This document shows positions 20,430 to 30,509 of a stretch of 64,000 nucleotides of DNA, one piece after another. Origin of the DNA: Dehalococcoidia bacterium. GTDB taxonomy: Bacteria > Chloroflexota > Dehalococcoidia > Bin125. The notes beneath the pieces are model-generated. The model saw nothing but the letters and a program-made list of their open reading frames with translations. It was not told where the DNA came from and searched no databases. A program made the translations under genes and the position numbers. Positions within the stretch are counted from its first letter, which is position 1. Every line of letters starts with the position of its first letter. Where the stretch lies: contig JAJDWB010000010.1 of NCBI GenBank assembly GCA_022825855.1, forward strand, positions 124,001 to 188,000, in the 5' to 3' direction.

Positions 20430-21218
20430 TCAGCGGCCCTTGAACTGGGGAGTGCGCTTCTCCATGAAGGCCTTGGGACCTTCGATCGCGTCTTCGCTGC
20501 CGAAGGCTCGGGCTCCGAGCAAGGACTCGAGGCTCCACGCCTGCTCCCACGACATGCCCATCGCGCCGCGCACGGCAATCTCCTTGGCGGTGCGTACCGC
20601 AAGCGGTCCATTGGCGCAGATCAGGTCGGCGATGGCGTGGGCGGTCGGCATCAGGTCTTCAAGCGGAACGACGCGGTTGATCAGTCCGCAGTGCAACGCC
20701 TCCTGCGCCGACATCCGCCTGCCGGTCAGGATCAACTCCATCGCCCAGGCCCAGGGAATCTGGCGCGGCAGGCGGATATGCGCGCCCTGATCGGGGACGA
20801 TGCCCCAGCGCACCTCCTGCAAGCCAAACTCGGCATGCTCGGCGGCGACGCGGATGTCGGTCCCGAGCATGTACTCGAGCCCGCCGGCGATGCAGTAACC
20901 GTTGACGGCCGAGATGATCGGTTTGAAGACGTGGTGTAGGTTGCGCGTGTCTTGGACGCGGAGCGGATTGTCGCGCGCGCCGGCCGACTTCGCAGGAATC
21001 GTGCTGCCCAGGTCGGCGCCGGCGCAGAATGCGCGCTCACCGGCGCCGGTGATGATCGCAACCCAGATGTCGGGATCGTTGTTGAAATCCTCGGTGGCGT
21101 CGCGCAGCAGCCGCAACAGGTCCTGCGACATTGCGTTCATCCGCTCGGGGCGGTTGAACGTGATTACGCAGCGGCGGTTGGCGGGGTCCTTCTCGTAGAT
21201 CAGCGGTTCGTCGGTCAT
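20430..21218 (-). CDS. enoyl-CoA hydratase/isomerase (tandem copy 1)
   Basis: 262 residues from the ATG preceded by AAGGAG; the open frame extends 60 codons upstream into non-coding sequence. Crotonase motifs: ITFNRPERMNAM, GAGERAFCAGADLG (oxyanion hole), VNGYCIAGGLEYMLGTDIR and EVRWGIVPDQGAHIRLPRQIP with the catalytic region. It hydrates enoyl-CoA or isomerizes related thioesters. The 61 C-terminal residues match copy 2 at 56 positions, far above the rest, suggesting recent gene conversion. Confidence 0.92.
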   Translation of the reverse strand: MTDEPLIYEKDPANRRCVITFNRPERMNAMSQDLLRLLRDATEDFNNDPDIWVAIITGAGERAFCAGADLGSTIPAKSAGARDNPLRVQDTRNLHHVFKPIISAVNGYCIAGGLEYMLGTDIRVAAEHAEFGLQEVRWGIVPDQGAHIRLPRQIPWAWAMELILTGRRMSAQEALHCGLINRVVPLEDLMPTAHAIADLICANGPLAVRTAKEIAVRGAMGMSWEQAWSLESLLGARAFGSEDAIEGPKAFMEKRTPQFKGR

Positions 21219-21249
21219 CGTGTTGCTCCTTCTCACAGAATGGTTGGAA

Positions 21250-22038
21250 CTAGCGGCCCTTGAAGACGGGGTCGCGCTTCTCCATGAATGCGCGCGGGCC
21301 TTCAACGGCGTCCTCGCTGCCGAAGGCGCGGGCTCCGAGCAGTGATTCCAGGCTCCAGGCCTGCTCCCACGACATGCCCATCGCGCCGCGCACGGCAATC
21401 TCTTTGGCCGTGCGCACGGCGAGCGGACCGTTACGGCAGATCAGGTCGGCGATGCCGTGGGCCGTCTCCATCAACCGGTCGGCTGGCACCACGCGATTGA
21501 TCAGGCCGCATTGCAGCGCTTCGGCGGCGGACAGCCGTCGGCCGGTGAGCAGGATCTCCATCGCCCAGCACCAAGGAATCTGGCGGGGCAGGCGGATGTG
21601 CGAACCGCCAATCGGGATGATCCCCCAGCGCACTTCCTGCAGGCCGAACTCGGCGTGTTCGGCGGCAACCCGGATATCGGTTCCGAGCATGAACTCAAGT
21701 CCGCCGGCGATGCAGTAGCCGTTGACAGCGGCAATCACAGGCTTGTGAACGTCATGGAGGTTGCGCGTCTCGTTGACCCTGAGCGGTTCTTCCCGCGTCG
21801 CCTGGGTCGCGTTGGGAATCGTACTGCCCAGATCGGCGCCGGCGCAGAACGCGCGCTCACCTGCGCCGGTGACAATCAGCACCCAGAGATCCGGATCGTT
21901 CCTGAAGTCCGCAATCGCTTCGCGCATCAGCGCCTGCAGGTCGGGACTCATGGCGTTCATCCGCTCGGGGCGATTGAAAGTCACCAGTGCGCGGCGGTTG
22001 GCATGATCGGGTTCATAGAGCAAAGGCGGTTCGGGCAT
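21250..22038 (-). CDS. enoyl-CoA hydratase/isomerase (tandem copy 2)
   Basis: 262 residues from the ATG after GGAG. The upstream 28 codons of the open frame are not used. Same crotonase motifs as copy 1: VTFNRPERMNAM, GAGERAFCAGADLG, VNGYCIAGGLEFMLG, EVRWGIIPIGGSHIRLPRQIP. The main differences are near residues 75-90 and 145-160, where acyl-chain contacts lie, so substrate range may differ. It is 31 nt upstream of copy 1, and the epoxide-hydrolase-like gene follows, forming one unit. Confidence 0.92.
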   Translation of the reverse strand: MPEPPLLYEPDHANRRALVTFNRPERMNAMSPDLQALMREAIADFRNDPDLWVLIVTGAGERAFCAGADLGSTIPNATQATREEPLRVNETRNLHDVHKPVIAAVNGYCIAGGLEFMLGTDIRVAAEHAEFGLQEVRWGIIPIGGSHIRLPRQIPWCWAMEILLTGRRLSAAEALQCGLINRVVPADRLMETAHGIADLICRNGPLAVRTAKEIAVRGAMGMSWEQAWSLESLLGARAFGSEDAVEGPRAFMEKRDPVFKGR

Positions 22039-22135
22039 GGCGGACTCCGGAGATGCCTGACAGGGTCTACGCAGAAGATACGCGCAGGGCGGCGTAACCC
22101 GGTAGCACCCCTCCCCGGCCACCCCGTCCTGCGCA

Positions 22136-25040: not shown

Positions 25041-25115
25041 TGGAGCGGGAGACGGGATTCGAACCCGCGACCCTCTGCTTGGGAAGCAGATGCTCTACCA
25101 CTGAGCTACTCCCGC
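25041..25115 (-). tRNA. tRNA-Gly (CCC anticodon)
   Basis: 75 nt on the minus strand, CCA encoded. Acceptor stem GCGGGAG/CTCCCGC with U discriminator; D-arm GCTCAGTGGTAGAGC; anticodon arm TCTGC-TTCCCAA-GCAGA with anticodon CCC; T-loop GTTCGAATC. Clean cloverleaf. Confidence 0.97.
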
Positions 25116-25220: not shown

Positions 25221-26042
25221 TTACGGCCGACCCGGGCGGTCGGCGGCGCGCAGCAGCAGCCCGCCCAGGACCGCCGAGGTAGCGACCGCCCCGGCCGCCA
25301 GCGCGACGATGGCTGCGTTGCGGGCCAGCATGTCTACGGCGTCGACCGCGATCCACCAGAGATCGGCGCCGAACGGGTCCAGCGACGACTCGGCGCTGCC
25401 GGTGAACGACGATTGCAGCAGCGAGGCGGCAATCCAGACGATTGCGGCTCCAACGCCGAGGCCGAGTGCCGGCGCTCCGAAGCGAGCCAGTCCTCGGGCC
25501 TGAGCCGCGACCGACATCGCCAACAGCACGGTCAGGGTCCCGCTGACGATCAGGGCAATCGTGGCAACGCTGTGTCCGCCTCTGGTCAGGCGGCCCACCG
25601 AGCCATCGAAGGCAGCCCCTCGAGAGAGAAAGCGGAAGGCCTGCGGGGATTGGGCCAGTATGTCGAAGCCGTCGTCGTACACGAGCGAGGCGGTCGCAGC
25701 GGCGACTTCGCGGGCGACGGCTTTGGGTCCGTCAGCGACGGCCGCCGGGTCGAGCTGCAGGCCCACCGGGAACCCCGACAGTTCAATCGGCTCGCCCAGT
25801 TCGGCGGCCTCTTCCAGCGCCGGCCAGGCGTAGGCGACGAACCGATCGATCTCCAACAGCGAACTTGTCGCGGACGCGAGCAGACGCTGTGCCGTGGCGC
25901 GTGCGGTGAGCTGGGTCGCCGATATCGAGATCACTGCGATCGTGGCGCCGAGCGCGGTCAGCAACATGGTGATAACGAAGAGCGAGCGCCGCCAGCTCGA
26001 ATCGCTCGCCGCGACAAGGGTGTGGTGAGGAAGCGTGCTCAC
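25221..26042 (-). CDS. membrane protein of unknown function (four membrane segments)
   Basis: 273 residues, GTG start overlapping the TGA of the RDD gene as GTGA, so translation is coupled. One membrane segment near residues 20-43, an outside-facing stretch of about 100 residues, then three hydrophobic segments near 158-180, 188-210 and 235-262. I recognise no family. The single-segment anchor plus extracytoplasmic domain is sensor- or receptor-like in layout, but that is only topology. It pairs with an RDD protein and stands divergent to a membrane-anchored protease candidate. Confidence 0.75.
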   Translation of the reverse strand: MSTLPHHTLVAASDSSWRRSLFVITMLLTALGATIAVISISATQLTARATAQRLLASATSSLLEIDRFVAYAWPALEEAAELGEPIELSGFPVGLQLDPAAVADGPKAVAREVAAATASLVYDDGFDILAQSPQAFRFLSRGAAFDGSVGRLTRGGHSVATIALIVSGTLTVLLAMSVAAQARGLARFGAPALGLGVGAAIVWIAASLLQSSFTGSAESSLDPFGADLWWIAVDAVDMLARNAAIVALAAGAVATSAVLGGLLLRAADRPGRP

Positions 26043-26494
26043 GTCGGCTCGGTCTCAAACAGGATCGAACCGGAGAACATGTCGGGCAGACTCCGGCCGA
26101 GCGAGTCAACCCAGGGCCACCACATGCCGACGCCGAACAGCAGGAACGACGGCCACCACATCAATCCCCGAATCAGAAACGTGCGTGTGCCGCCTCGCAG
26201 CTCGCGCAGACCAAGCAGGCGCGCGCCAACCGTGCGAGCGCCGAGCCCGGCGTAGAGCGAGGAGATCAGGAACCAACAGAGCGCCACGGCGTATCCGACG
26301 CCCCACTCGCCGGCGGTCGGGTCGCGCTCCAGCGGATCGACCTGGAGCAGCATCGCCAACGCGGCAATGGCCGCGCAGAGCGCGCTGAACAGGCCGATGA
26401 TCAGGAAGTCGATCGTTGCCGCGACGGCTCGCGCCTCGCGGCGGACGATGGGCAAGCGGATGGAGGTGGGGAGATCGGACTCTACGGTCGCCAT
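26039..26494 (-). CDS. RDD-family membrane protein
   Basis: 151 residues from the ATG at 26494; the open frame extends far upstream but that part is the reverse of the protease gene. Three membrane segments: about 28-50, 66-88 and 110-135. REARAVAATIDFLIIGLF has the Arg...Asp pattern at the first segment, and GARLLGLRELRGG the second conserved part of the RDD domain. RDD proteins are poorly characterised; some act in ion/compatible-solute transport or as accessory subunits. Divergent from the protease gene at 26523, with back-to-back -10-like boxes. Confidence 0.78.
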   Translation of the reverse strand: MATVESDLPTSIRLPIVRREARAVAATIDFLIIGLFSALCAAIAALAMLLQVDPLERDPTAGEWGVGYAVALCWFLISSLYAGLGARTVGARLLGLRELRGGTRTFLIRGLMWWPSFLLFGVGMWWPWVDSLGRSLPDMFSGSILFETEPT

Positions 26495-26509
26495 CAATGC
26501 CGTTGAGCG

Positions 26510-26515
26510 TAGCAT
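26510..26515 (+). promoter_or_regulatory. -10 box TAGCAT, leaderless type
   Basis: TAGCAT ends 7 nt before the ATG at 26523. On the other strand a TACGCT (26506-26511) overlaps it and faces the RDD gene, so the two divergent promoters share sequence. Confidence 0.5.
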
Positions 26516-26522
26516 CGAATCC

Positions 26523-27665
26523 ATGCGCAGTAGACGGCTCGGCCTTGTCATCGCGCTGGGCATGCTGGCCCTGGGCGGCGCGGTGCTGGCTGTGCTCCTG
26601 GCGCTGCTGTTGCTGCGTGTCCAGTCCTCAACGGCGCTCGACGACGCGGTGGCCGAGGCGACCGAGGGGCATCGCTTCGATCTCCTGCAGTTCGAGTTCA
26701 CGCATCTACCCAACCGGCTGCTGACCGAGGTCGCCCGCTGGTTCGACCCCTCCGAGCCGGACCACGATGCGGTGCTGGAACGCTGGTTCAGCGAACGCAA
26801 CGAGGCAGACCGTAAGCCGGCCGAGCGGGCCCTGGAGCGAAGCATCGCCCGTGCCGCCGCCGACCTGGAGCTCGGTTCGCCCCTGCCGCTGTTCTCCGAT
26901 GTGGAAGTCCTCTGGCCGCCGATCGATGTGGACCTGGGAGAGACGCTGCGCGTGTTAGCCGTATCGCCGCTCAACGAGGTGCGGCTGGTCCGCACTGAGT
27001 TGCTCGGCTCGCAAATCGCATCGGAAGACTTCGGCCGGCTTGAGGCGACCGTTGAAGCCGGGGGCGAGTGGTCGGCTTGGGTGACAACGATCGGCGGCGT
27101 GGCCCTCTACCCGGCGCCGGTCGTGTCCTCTCGCGACTATCTGCGCACGTTACGAGTGATGGCCCACGAGTGGACGCATCACTACCTGGGGTTCTACCCG
27201 CTGGGATTGTCCTACGCCCGGGGATCGGAGATGCGCACGATCAACGAGACGGTCGCTGACATCGTCGGCGACGAACTGGGCGCGGCGGCCGCTTCGCTCA
27301 TCGGCGCCGACCTGCCTGCGGTCGACAACCCGGAACGGGCAGCGCTGTTGGCTCGTACCGATCCGATCCTGCGCAACCTGAGGATCGAGGTGGACGAGCT
27401 CCTGGCGCAGGGAGAGCTGGCCGAGGCGGAGCGTCGCATGGAGGCGGCACGACTGGAACTGATTGAACTGGGCCGTCCGTTCCGCAAGATCAACCAGGCA
27501 TTCCTCGCCTTTCGCGGCGGCTACGGCGCCAGTGGGGCGTCGGCCAGCCGGTGGGGGCCGAGGTTGTTCGCCCTGCGAGACGCCAGCGATTCCCTGGCCC
27601 ACTTCCTCGAGCAGGTGCGAGTGATCGACTCTCCCGAGGAGGCCGATCGGCTGCTGCCGCAGTAG
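26523..27665 (+). CDS. membrane-anchored HEXXH metalloprotease candidate (gluzincin-like)
   Basis: 380 residues. One N-terminal membrane segment (about 8-32) anchors a predicted outside domain. H215-E216-W217-T218-H219-H220 is a zinc-protease HEXXH motif, and NETVAD (241-246), about 20 residues on, supplies the third ligand Glu in the manner of gluzincins. The C-terminal 130 residues are helical and charged. I do not recognise a named family; the motif arrangement is a strong hint of a protease, but the substrate is unknown. Neighbours are the divergent RDD/membrane pair and the convergent penicillin-binding protein, so a cell-envelope job is plausible. Confidence 0.72.
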   Translation: MRSRRLGLVIALGMLALGGAVLAVLLALLLLRVQSSTALDDAVAEATEGHRFDLLQFEFTHLPNRLLTEVARWFDPSEPDHDAVLERWFSERNEADRKPAERALERSIARAAADLELGSPLPLFSDVEVLWPPIDVDLGETLRVLAVSPLNEVRLVRTELLGSQIASEDFGRLEATVEAGGEWSAWVTTIGGVALYPAPVVSSRDYLRTLRVMAHEWTHHYLGFYPLGLSYARGSEMRTINETVADIVGDELGAAAASLIGADLPAVDNPERAALLARTDPILRNLRIEVDELLAQGELAEAERRMEAARLELIELGRPFRKINQAFLAFRGGYGASGASASRWGPRLFALRDASDSLAHFLEQVRVIDSPEEADRLLPQ

Positions 27666-27695: not shown

Positions 27696-30509
27696 CTACT
27701 CCTCTGCGGCTTCGACGTCGAGCACGCTGGCGTCGTCGGGGATCGCAACCTGGATCTGGTCGATGACGGTGCCCAGGTAGCTGTCGCGGACTTCGAGCCG
27801 CAACTGGTAGACCCCGCCCGGCAGTTCGCTGCTGTCCCAGCGACCGAGCACGCCGCTGGCAACGGCGTCGTCGCCCTCGGCAATCAGGAAGGTCTCCTCG
27901 CCGTCGAGTAACAGCGCCATCAACGTCCAACCAAGCAGATCGGCGCTGTCCGCACGCCCGGTGATGACCAGCGCACCGCGCTTGATCGTCGCGCCGTCGA
28001 CAGGCGAATCGAGACGCGCGGGGACGTGGGATTCGGCAATGGTACCGGGTTGCAGATAGGCGACCTGATTGCGTCGCAGCCAGTCGACGACGACCGGATC
28101 GAGAGCGGTGGCGGCGCCGCGCGCAACCGTCGGCGCTTCCAGCCAGACGCCCTGTTGCAGGTGCGCCTCAGGTGTGTCGACGGTTGCGCGCTGCAATGTG
28201 CGCGCGTCGATCTCGACATCGATGCAGATCTGATTGTCGAGCGGCGGCGCGACACGGATGGAAACGAAAATCTCCACGCGCGGGGACGTGCAGGGATTGC
28301 GGGGCGCCAATCCACTCGACGCCGTTGCGGACAACGGCGATACCGCAGGCGCGTAGACCTCCGAGCGATGGAGGCGGTCCGGTTCGACAAACGCAACTGT
28401 CTCCAGCCCGGCGTGCGCGGCCAGCATGAAGCGATTCCAGATCCGGCCGGCGGTCTGCACGGACGAACCGCCGGTCATCGGCGATTCGTCGGCATTGCCG
28501 ACCCAGACGCCGACGGCGAGCTGCGGCGTGTAGCCCATGGTCCAGTAGTCGCGGCGCACGTCGTCTCGTCCCGGATCGCCGGCCGTGCCGGTCTTGGCGG
28601 CGGCGGGACGATCGATCACTAACGGGCTGGCCGTGCCGTAGAGCAGCGAGCGAGCCTGGTTGTCGGAGAGCATGTTTGTGATCTGGTAAACCTGTGCGGC
28701 CTTGGCCACTGCCCTGACCTCCGGCTCACCGGTCGGTGACCACTCATAGAGCAGCCGGCCCTCGGCGTCGCGAATCTCCAGCACGGCGACCGGATCGAGT
28801 TCGCGGAATCCGTCAGGCAAGACGATCGTCGTCGCGTGACCCTTCATCTCACCTCCGTTGGCGAGGGTTGAGTAGGCATAGGTCATGTCGAGCAAGGAGA
28901 CCTCGCCGCCGCCGAGGGTCAGTGACGGCCCGTACGCGCCGGGATCGTGCATCGTCGTGATCCCGAGCCGATGCATCGTGTCGAGCATCGCGCCGACGCC
29001 GAGCCGGTCGGCGACCTTGAAGGCGGGCACGTTCATCGAGTTGGCCAAGGCGCTGCGAATCGTGACCGGCCCGCGAAATACACCGTCAAAGTTGGCCGGG
29101 CGGAACTCGGTTCCGTCGGCTTCGGTATATGTCGTGGGTACGTCCCAGAGAACGGTCGCGGGATGCCACATGCGCGGATCGATCTGGAACGCGGCCAGGT
29201 AGGTGAGCGGTTTGATGGCGGAACCGGGCGAATGGGTCGCCGTGGCCAGGTTGACCTGCCCGTCGATCGATTCGTCGAAGAAGTCTCGGCTGCCGACCAT
29301 CGCGAGAATCTGGCCGGTGGCCGGATCGATGGCGACCAGCGCTCCGTTATGTGCACCGGTGGCGGCTTCGAAATCGTCAATAGCTGCGCGCAGCTCAACC
29401 TCGGCGCGTTCTTGCAGGGCGAAATCTAGCGACGTACGCACACGCAGGCCGCCGTTGTCCATCAGGTTGTCGCAGCCTCCCGCCCCCGACGGCGGCACGA
29501 ATCGTTCCAGCTCGCAGAGCCGCACGATCTGCTCACGTACGTAGATCACGTAGTGCGGCGCGTTGATGTCGAACTCGGCGGAGTCGAAGTCGAGCGGCTC
29601 GGCCCAGGCGTCGTCAGCCTCGGAACGGCTGACGTAGCCGTGACGCACCATGAGCGCCAGGACCTGCCTCTGGCGCTGCTTCGCGCCTTCGAAGTTGACC
29701 AGTGGGTTGTAGAGCGAAGGCGCCTGGGGCAGACCGGCCAGCAACGCCGACTCGGCCAGGGTGAGCTGCGAAGGGGGCTTGCCGAAGTAGCGTTGGCTGG
29801 CCGCGCCGATCCCGTAGGAGAAGTTCCCGTAGTAGATCGAGTTCAGGTACCACTCAAGGATCTGTTCCTTGCCGTACTCGTTGGTCAGTTCGACCGCGAG
29901 GATGGTTTCCTTGACCTTGCCGCGCACACGATTGAGCGTGCGTCCGCTGCGTTCCTCGGGCGGAATCAGAACGTTCTTGACCAGTTGCTGCGTGATCGAG
30001 GAGCCGCCCGAGCCGCCCAGAAAGTCGGAACTGCCGACGCCGAAGTTCTCCCACGCGGCTCTGAGCAGACCGCGAAGGTTGATGCCTTCGTTGGTCCAGA
30101 AGGATGAGTCCTCGGTCGCCACGGTCGCGTCGATCATGAATTGTGAGACGCCGTGCAAGCGCACTGGCGCGCGCAGACCGTCGTAGGGACGGGCGTACTC
30201 GAAGAGCAAGACGCCCTCTTCGCCGTTGCGGTCGAAGATCCGGCTGCTGCCCAGCAGCCGCTGGGTTTCCTCGATCCGGTCGGGCGGGGCGAGATCATCG
30301 GCGAACTCGGAGTAGATCAGATAAGCAGTGGCCGCGGTTGCGCCGAGCATCAGCGCAGGCAGGCCGAGCACGAGTGTGAGCGCGATCATCCAGCCGCGCA
30401 TGCGCGGCGGTTCGGCTCGTACGCCCCGCTTGCGGCGGCGCGAGCGGATTGCGAGTCGCGTCGCCAGCGTCAGCCGCCGATTGCGTCCCGGATTACGTTC
30501 CGAGGCCAA
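27696..30509 (-). CDS. class A penicillin-binding protein (PBP1A-like)
   Basis: 937 residues from a TTG start after AGGAGG. A basic cytoplasmic tail and one membrane segment (39-65) precede the glycosyltransferase 51 domain, with the catalytic Glu in VATEDSSFW (Glu 133) and GGSSITQQLVKN. The transpeptidase domain has SXXK at 430-433 (SAIK), SMN near 491, and KTGTAGD at 639-645. About 230 extra C-terminal residues look like one or two beta-sandwich domains. It makes and crosslinks peptidoglycan, so this organism has a murein wall. A divergent gap leads to gatC. Confidence 0.95.
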   Translation of the reverse strand: MASERNPGRNRRLTLATRLAIRSRRRKRGVRAEPPRMRGWMIALTLVLGLPALMLGATAATAYLIYSEFADDLAPPDRIEETQRLLGSSRIFDRNGEEGVLLFEYARPYDGLRAPVRLHGVSQFMIDATVATEDSSFWTNEGINLRGLLRAAWENFGVGSSDFLGGSGGSSITQQLVKNVLIPPEERSGRTLNRVRGKVKETILAVELTNEYGKEQILEWYLNSIYYGNFSYGIGAASQRYFGKPPSQLTLAESALLAGLPQAPSLYNPLVNFEGAKQRQRQVLALMVRHGYVSRSEADDAWAEPLDFDSAEFDINAPHYVIYVREQIVRLCELERFVPPSGAGGCDNLMDNGGLRVRTSLDFALQERAEVELRAAIDDFEAATGAHNGALVAIDPATGQILAMVGSRDFFDESIDGQVNLATATHSPGSAIKPLTYLAAFQIDPRMWHPATVLWDVPTTYTEADGTEFRPANFDGVFRGPVTIRSALANSMNVPAFKVADRLGVGAMLDTMHRLGITTMHDPGAYGPSLTLGGGEVSLLDMTYAYSTLANGGEMKGHATTIVLPDGFRELDPVAVLEIRDAEGRLLYEWSPTGEPEVRAVAKAAQVYQITNMLSDNQARSLLYGTASPLVIDRPAAAKTGTAGDPGRDDVRRDYWTMGYTPQLAVGVWVGNADESPMTGGSSVQTAGRIWNRFMLAAHAGLETVAFVEPDRLHRSEVYAPAVSPLSATASSGLAPRNPCTSPRVEIFVSIRVAPPLDNQICIDVEIDARTLQRATVDTPEAHLQQGVWLEAPTVARGAATALDPVVVDWLRRNQVAYLQPGTIAESHVPARLDSPVDGATIKRGALVITGRADSADLLGWTLMALLLDGEETFLIAEGDDAVASGVLGRWDSSELPGGVYQLRLEVRDSYLGTVIDQIQVAIPDDASVLDVEAAEE

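Follow-up and report, generated by a model that had tools for sequence, protein, structure and literature searches.

Peptidases of the gluzincin clan MA(E) are recognised by an HEXXH motif and a downstream glutamate on a second helix. The closest described counterparts of the protein reported here, by sequence profile or by structure, are the M1 aminopeptidases (PF01433), the M4 thermolysin-like peptidases (PF01447), the M3 oligopeptidases and the Aminopep family PF10023. A further described family at this locus is RDD (PF06271), one member of which is reported to be a Na+(Li+,K+)/H+ antiporter (PMC5996927). The locus lies in a 64,000-nucleotide stretch (the window) of contig JAJDWB010000010.1 of a Dehalococcoidia bacterium, whose assembly is genome G000 of our comparison set, with the locus on its contig 17. 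It consists of a gene for a predicted membrane-anchored zinc peptidase, called P1 here, and two genes read in the opposite direction, which encode an RDD-family membrane protein and a second membrane protein, P3. P1 belongs to a conserved, unnamed, Chloroflexota-wide family that carries the gluzincin motif set. We read it as a family of envelope peptidases, new among the gluzincins, that in one branch is tied to the RDD–P3 membrane pair, and give this reading a probability of about 0.62.

Of 61 related genomes, 47 have a relative of P1 (32 of the 37 of good quality), as do 77 in a set of 301 Chloroflexota genomes, where each positive genome has a single match; of the genomes listed in the latter search under family code f14, 0/11 had P1. 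The genome collection holds P1 relatives at no fewer than 573 places, of which the best 80 confirmed loci were analysed, so that distant relatives are under-sampled. These 80 carry Chloroflexota-type names or belong to bacteria HR24 and HR29, and the nearest named records among them are metagenome-assembled genomes of Dehalococcoidia/Chloroflexi. The plasmid search returned zero relatives. No Pfam family matched P1 at E ≤ 1, and the sole rows in NCBIfam and PHROGs had E values of 0.033 and 0.053, the NCBIfam row lying far under its cut-off. PADLOC (anti-phage defence) gave no family for P1, RDD or P3 at E ≤ 0.01. Searches of PDB sequences with the P1 sequence and profile yielded chance-level matches only, and the literature search found nothing for HEXXH with Dehalococcoidia, for COG4324 or for HEWTHH.

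The P1 sequence and model bear out the sequence-only reading of this DNA, which had described a membrane anchor, an HEWTHH motif and, 20 residues further on, NETVAD; conservation, model and library searches likewise support its view of a gluzincin-like zinc site in a protein of no recognised family. The four proposed zinc and catalytic residues (H215, E216, H219 and E242) are not generally lost in homologues: 112 of 114 distinct members keep all four, the two exceptions being at H215 (112/114), while E216, H219, N241 and E242 are each found in 114/114. Also invariant are W217, L227, G228, P132, S148, E174, G192 and P197, and R321, Q325 and Y334 are kept in 113/114, with one gap; D246 is poorly kept (61/114). 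With the HEXXH and the downstream glutamate in 112/114 and both helices modelled, P1 has the motif and helix pattern of clan MA(E). Residue 150 (26970-26972) is leucine in the window protein and arginine in 113/114 members, a private change within the S148-P-R150 motif at an otherwise near-invariant site. The first, 46-row P1 alignment excluded the split L064. A transmembrane-like stretch precedes the catalytic domain in 104 of the 111 members scored and, because the N-terminus is basic, the catalytic domain is predicted to lie outside the cytoplasmic membrane.

The AlphaFold model of P1, built from an 81-row alignment, has a mean predicted local distance difference test score (pLDDT) of 94.2 and a predicted template modelling score of 0.90. 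Its HEXXH helix (206–222) and NE helix (235–257) both follow a mixed sheet. When P1 was aligned with VIA-align over Foldseek's 635 candidates, 48 of 50 rows were M1, M2 (including ACE2), M3, M4 or M32 peptidases, an assignment we made from the structure titles, at Z scores of 5.4–8.1, values near 8 being common, by the tool's own note, for models with no clear match. The best row was the M3 Pz peptidase 3ahm (Z 8.1, 214 residues, 4.8 Å), followed by M4 elastases and thermolysins, among them LasB (Z 7.9, 180 residues, 4.6 Å), and then by M1, M2 and M32; the two remaining rows were a "putative lipoprotein" (3o0y) and a mitoribosome chain. It is the agreement among rows, rather than any single Z value, that counts. 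In profile comparison with hhalign, the HEXXH and NE motifs lined up in register with those of M1 (P 1.2e-4), of a verified PF10023 member (1.6e-4) and of M4 (2.6e-4), against control values of 0.72 for Lit, 0.17 for P3 and 0.1 for FtsH/M41. On the same scale, M1 against M4 gave 4.6e-5 and the PF10023 member gave 1.7e-3 against M4 and 3.8e-3 against M1; P1 is therefore about as distant from M1 and M4 as these are from each other, and PF10023 may be its nearest family. Pfam M4 models did not match P1 at E ≤ 1 (PF01447 had zero matches in the window's own genome), nor did PF01433, which finds a genuine M1 gene elsewhere in that genome (C17:15465-16088). The M1 exopeptidase motif GxMEN is absent from the P1 sequence. 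A gluzincin fold with a zinc site is very probable for P1, and an active peptidase is likely.

In one P1 branch, the three genes form a conserved divergent module, as the sequence-only reading had proposed, and its refuting case, a lack of co-occurrence, does not apply. The neighbourhood set comprised 118 loci, 117 with P1 (all except L033) and 109 distinct after removal of duplicates that share their last 250 residues. Profile searches found both divergent partners at 37 of the 109, RDD only at three, P3 only at none and neither at 69; 14 loci short of the full module have less than 1.8 kb of upstream DNA. On the P1 tree the module is confined to one starred group of 61 rows, and a 51-row clade within it (support 85) includes 46 rows with 1.8 kb or more of upstream DNA, 37 of which carry the module. 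The module label changes 10 times on the tree against a shuffled mean of 31, i.e. it is clustered, and the module was probably assembled once and then inherited with losses. Among the 61 related genomes P3 occurs in 25 (the window genome included, 15 of one genus), of which 24 also have P1; the exception is G037, which has P3 and no detected P1. In 20 of the 24, P1 and P3 share a contig and are no more than about 5 kb apart; G035, G049 and G052 have them on different contigs, and in G004 they are split at contig ends. In G052, RDD and P3 adjoin each other apart from P1. The G004 assembly breaks at this very place: RDD–P3 and the promoter block end one contig (L033, contig 37) and P1 starts another (L032, contig 22). 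On balance, we favour a functional tie of P1 with RDD–P3 where the pair is present.

The divergent starts of P1 and RDD are separated by only 28 bp. Within this gap AGCGTAGCAT (26506-26515) holds TAGCAT on the plus strand (26510-26515), 7 nt ahead of the P1 start codon, and TACGCT on the minus strand (26511-26506), eleven bases before the RDD ATG, with two bases in common. The sequence-only reading had taken these for overlapping divergent -10 boxes that suggest shared control. As sequence the boxes are real. Every one of the 15 genus members has the block GAGCGTAGCATCGA, 14 of them at the P1 locus and G004 on the separate contig that carries RDD–P3, and the coding DNA flanking it varies across the genus. 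With up to 3 mismatches, the block occurs once in the window against a shuffle mean of 0.17. As a promoter it found no backing in the sigma-70 consensus scan, which returned no promoter and no -35 boxes; the looser pattern TAGCAT-N7-ATG, one mismatch allowed, shows no enrichment (3 occurrences against 3.7 expected), and the block did not appear beside P1 in genomes outside the genus. Because the block is conserved, promoter function is inferred for it, and overlapping -10 boxes with shared control are probable; given the position of TAGCAT, the P1 transcript would have little or no leader.

The RDD protein scores 37.4 bits against PF06271 (cut-off 24.1) and, as in the RDD family, R22, D29 and D138 are conserved (12/12 sequences). 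This match and the GTGA overlap read from the DNA confirm that the divergent RDD gene is coupled to a membrane protein gene of no family; P3 has no named family in Pfam, NCBIfam or PADLOC. The RDD/P3 overlap has the same length in L036, L072, L073, L074 and L123. In its AlphaFold model (pLDDT 85.5), P3 has long helices at 8–45, 154–181, 186–219 and 223–267, and the large outside loop of the sequence-only reading corresponds to a helical stretch of about 110 residues that separates the first of these from the second and is predicted to lie outside. The top full-length structural neighbour of P3 is Lit (7b0p; Z 9.3, 173/215 residues aligned), a Z that helical membrane bundles can reach by chance. 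A Lit-like transacylase, which the structure suggests, was rejected by the profiles (hhalign probability 2.6 and 0.6). The window's own genome has a separate true Lit gene (PF07314; G000:C10:104029-104568), and 67 of 151 Chloroflexota genomes have a PF07314 match.

Table 1 Features of the P1 locus, in window coordinates
Feature	Position	Strand	Basis
P1, predicted membrane-anchored gluzincin-like zinc peptidase, 380 aa	26523-27665	+	Sequence, family search, AlphaFold, conservation
P1 N-terminal membrane anchor, helix residues 2-33	26526..26621	+	Sequence and model
P1 HEWTHH, residues 215-220; H215, E216, H219 proposed as zinc-binding and general-base residues	27165..27182	+	
P1 NETVAD, residues 241-246; E242 proposed third zinc ligand	27243..27260	+	
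P1 C-terminal signature RxxNQAxxAxxGxY (R321, N324, Q325, Y334), proposed substrate or transition-state site	27483..27524	+	
RDD-family membrane protein, 151 aa, divergent from P1	26039-26494	-	PF06271
P3, four-helix membrane protein, 273 aa, large helical extracytoplasmic region (predicted)	25221-26042	-	
GTGA overlap of RDD stop and P3 start, coupling both	26039..26042	-	
Conserved block GTTGAGCGTAGCATCGAA between the P1 and RDD starts, putative promoter role	26502..26519	none	
tRNA-Gly, bounds the three-gene group on the P3 side	25041-25115		
Class A penicillin-binding protein, convergent to P1, not thought part of the module	27696-30509	-	PF00912 and PF00905

Other neighbours of P1 vary. 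A PBP1A gene is convergent at 39 of the 109 loci, and EF-G-like genes (one member checked) are divergent at 10. A pair of SPFH/Band 7 genes, or part of it, lies downstream on the same strand at 7/109 loci (L057, L103, L104, L114, L125, L127 and L134), with gaps of 20–213 nt. These loci fall in one part of the tree, on which the SPFH neighbour changes twice; one member per SPFH cluster was checked as Band_7. Farther away in the window, the minus strand carries a tandem of two similar reading frames (20430-21398 and 21250-22122), a probable duplication of what we take to be an enoyl-CoA-hydratase-like gene.

In eight genomes of the class that have P1 (G036, G124, G031, G033, G170, G048, G193 and G231) there is no transglycosylase (PF00912) match, which agrees with the published finding that some Dehalococcoidia have lost peptidoglycan (PMC10284905). 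Among the class genomes in both listings, the P3-bearing G000, G011, G035, G037 and G051 all have a transglycosylase; the P3-less G031, G033, G036, G038 and G048 have none, and the P3-less G032 has only a match of E 8.8e-4. This is a small hint that RDD–P3 goes with peptidoglycan and P1 does not.

In the mechanism we propose, the N-terminal helix would tether P1 at the outer face of the cytoplasmic membrane, zinc would be held by H215, H219 and E242, and E216 would activate the water. Conservation suggests that the R321/N324/Q325/Y334 patch binds substrate or steadies the transition state. The enzyme would cleave proteins or peptides that are exported or bound to the membrane. In one branch, P1 and the RDD–P3 operon would be transcribed back to back, probably from overlapping promoters, and RDD–P3 may form a membrane complex in the same envelope process; in another, P1 is followed by two SPFH/Band 7 genes. 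The SPFH/Band 7 class is known to hold membrane proteases. In E. coli, the SPFH proteins HflK and HflC control the protease FtsH (PMC12048511). A wider version, in which P1 is the catalytic core of an envelope proteolysis system typical of the phylum, its membrane partners are exchangeable (RDD–P3 or the SPFH pair) and RDD–P3 acts as an ion- or envelope-sensing gate, is speculative and on the unlikely side; the SPFH branch does include a genome with no detected transglycosylase.

Several observations, besides the note on Z values given above, weigh against an envelope peptidase tied to RDD–P3. Two P1 members (L067 and L139) have EEWxH, with the first histidine replaced by glutamate. These two (L067:6760-7806 and L139:5980-7203; EEWSH and EEWLH) are tree sisters with a common insertion ahead of NET, and either an altered metal ligand or an inactive form could account for them. 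The Foldseek search of the PDB gave no significant solved relative of P1 (best E 0.54), and that of viral models gave no significant match. Zinc binding, peptidase activity and localisation of P1 are predictions. The 69 loci that have neither divergent partner outnumber those with the module, and the joint neighbourhood may be inherited synteny; gene order alone cannot separate selection from slow loss. Finally, the structural resemblance of P3 to Lit has no confirmation in sequence.

An unlikely alternative, though the foremost one, is that P1 is a far PF10023 relative, a tethered peptide-trimming enzyme of nutrition or recycling, and that RDD and P3 are merely stable neighbours. The profile match of P1 to the PF10023 member is stronger than that of M4 or M1 to the same member, 2 of 81 P1 members touch PF10023 (best E 0.041), and a permissive realignment sets the C-terminal NQA...Y of P1 opposite NNT...Y of the PF10023 protein. 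However, the Pfam model (cut-off 25 bits) has no P1 match at E ≤ 1, the confident alignment spans only 48 columns, and the full-length register, seen in the permissive alignment with one PF10023 sequence, has low confidence at the C-terminus, so that the C-terminal pairing would be a lead, not proof. PF10023 had 0 matches over 151 Chloroflexota genomes and likewise 0 in 14 control genomes, which says nothing on its absence. That P1 is much wider than RDD–P3 suits the stable-neighbour part, but the module persists over deep divergence of P1 and its shared upstream block is conserved in the genus. P1 could also be a non-catalytic protein whose fold and zinc site are kept for binding. Inactive zincins are known (PMC3650047), and the two EEWxH members fit this idea, yet E216 in 114/114 and all four residues in 112/114 are the pattern of a selected active site, which makes it improbable.

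The sequence-only reading had also raised P3 as a membrane substrate or regulator of P1. We consider P3, or the RDD–P3 pair, a poor candidate for a direct substrate or dedicated inhibitor, and P3 alone as direct substrate fares no better. The divergent adjacency at 37/109 loci, where P3 never stands without RDD, and the sizeable, predicted outer helical region of P3 speak for it; against it, 23 of the 47 P1-bearing relatives (of 61) have no P3 match, G037 has P3 without detected P1, and RDD–P3 is off the P1 contig in G052. Since P1 is present in 47 and P3 in 25 of the 61 genomes, P3 cannot be the sole or general substrate. P1 might also help the convergent class A penicillin-binding protein to build or turn over peptidoglycan. 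PBP1A at 39/109 loci speaks for this role, but the eight P1-bearing genomes with no transglycosylase match leave it very improbable.

The envelope peptidase reading matters for several reasons. The cell envelope of Chloroflexota is unusual, and a protease that lineages with and without peptidoglycan have both retained would point to a basic envelope task. P1 represents a single-copy, deeply kept, predicted zinc peptidase family of a major, poorly cultivated phylum, with no named-family match in the libraries searched. The question is testable: full-module orthologues occur under the record names Tepidiformaceae and Tepidiforma (L115, L120), and cultured species of Tepidiforma exist.

Compared with known systems, P1 shares with PF10023 (Aminopep, formerly DUF2265), a member of which is its best single-sequence cross-family profile match, the HEXXH, a hydrophobic stretch near the N-terminus and a glutamate helix with NExxA. 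The two differ in the distance from HEXXH to the glutamate (12 residues in member L149 versus 22 in P1), in HEL versus HEW, and in the PLG loop of P1. The M4 thermolysin-like peptidases have the HEXXH...NE layout in register and reach Z 7.9, but their spacing is 19 in the members seen, their C-terminal halves differ, and D246 is not a fixed residue in the P1 family. The M1 aminopeptidases share the register as well, with structural rows to Z 7.2. M3 oligopeptidases (Pz peptidase, oligoendopeptidase F), compared by structure alone, provide the top row, and P1 is smaller than these, membrane-anchored and without a Pfam match. The RDD protein is a short, divergent member of PF06271. P3 has the arrangement of Lit (PF07314), i.e. 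one helix, an outer region and three helices, but the invariant His and Trp motifs of Lit are missing from it. The P1 family itself is new, and of a known enzyme kind.

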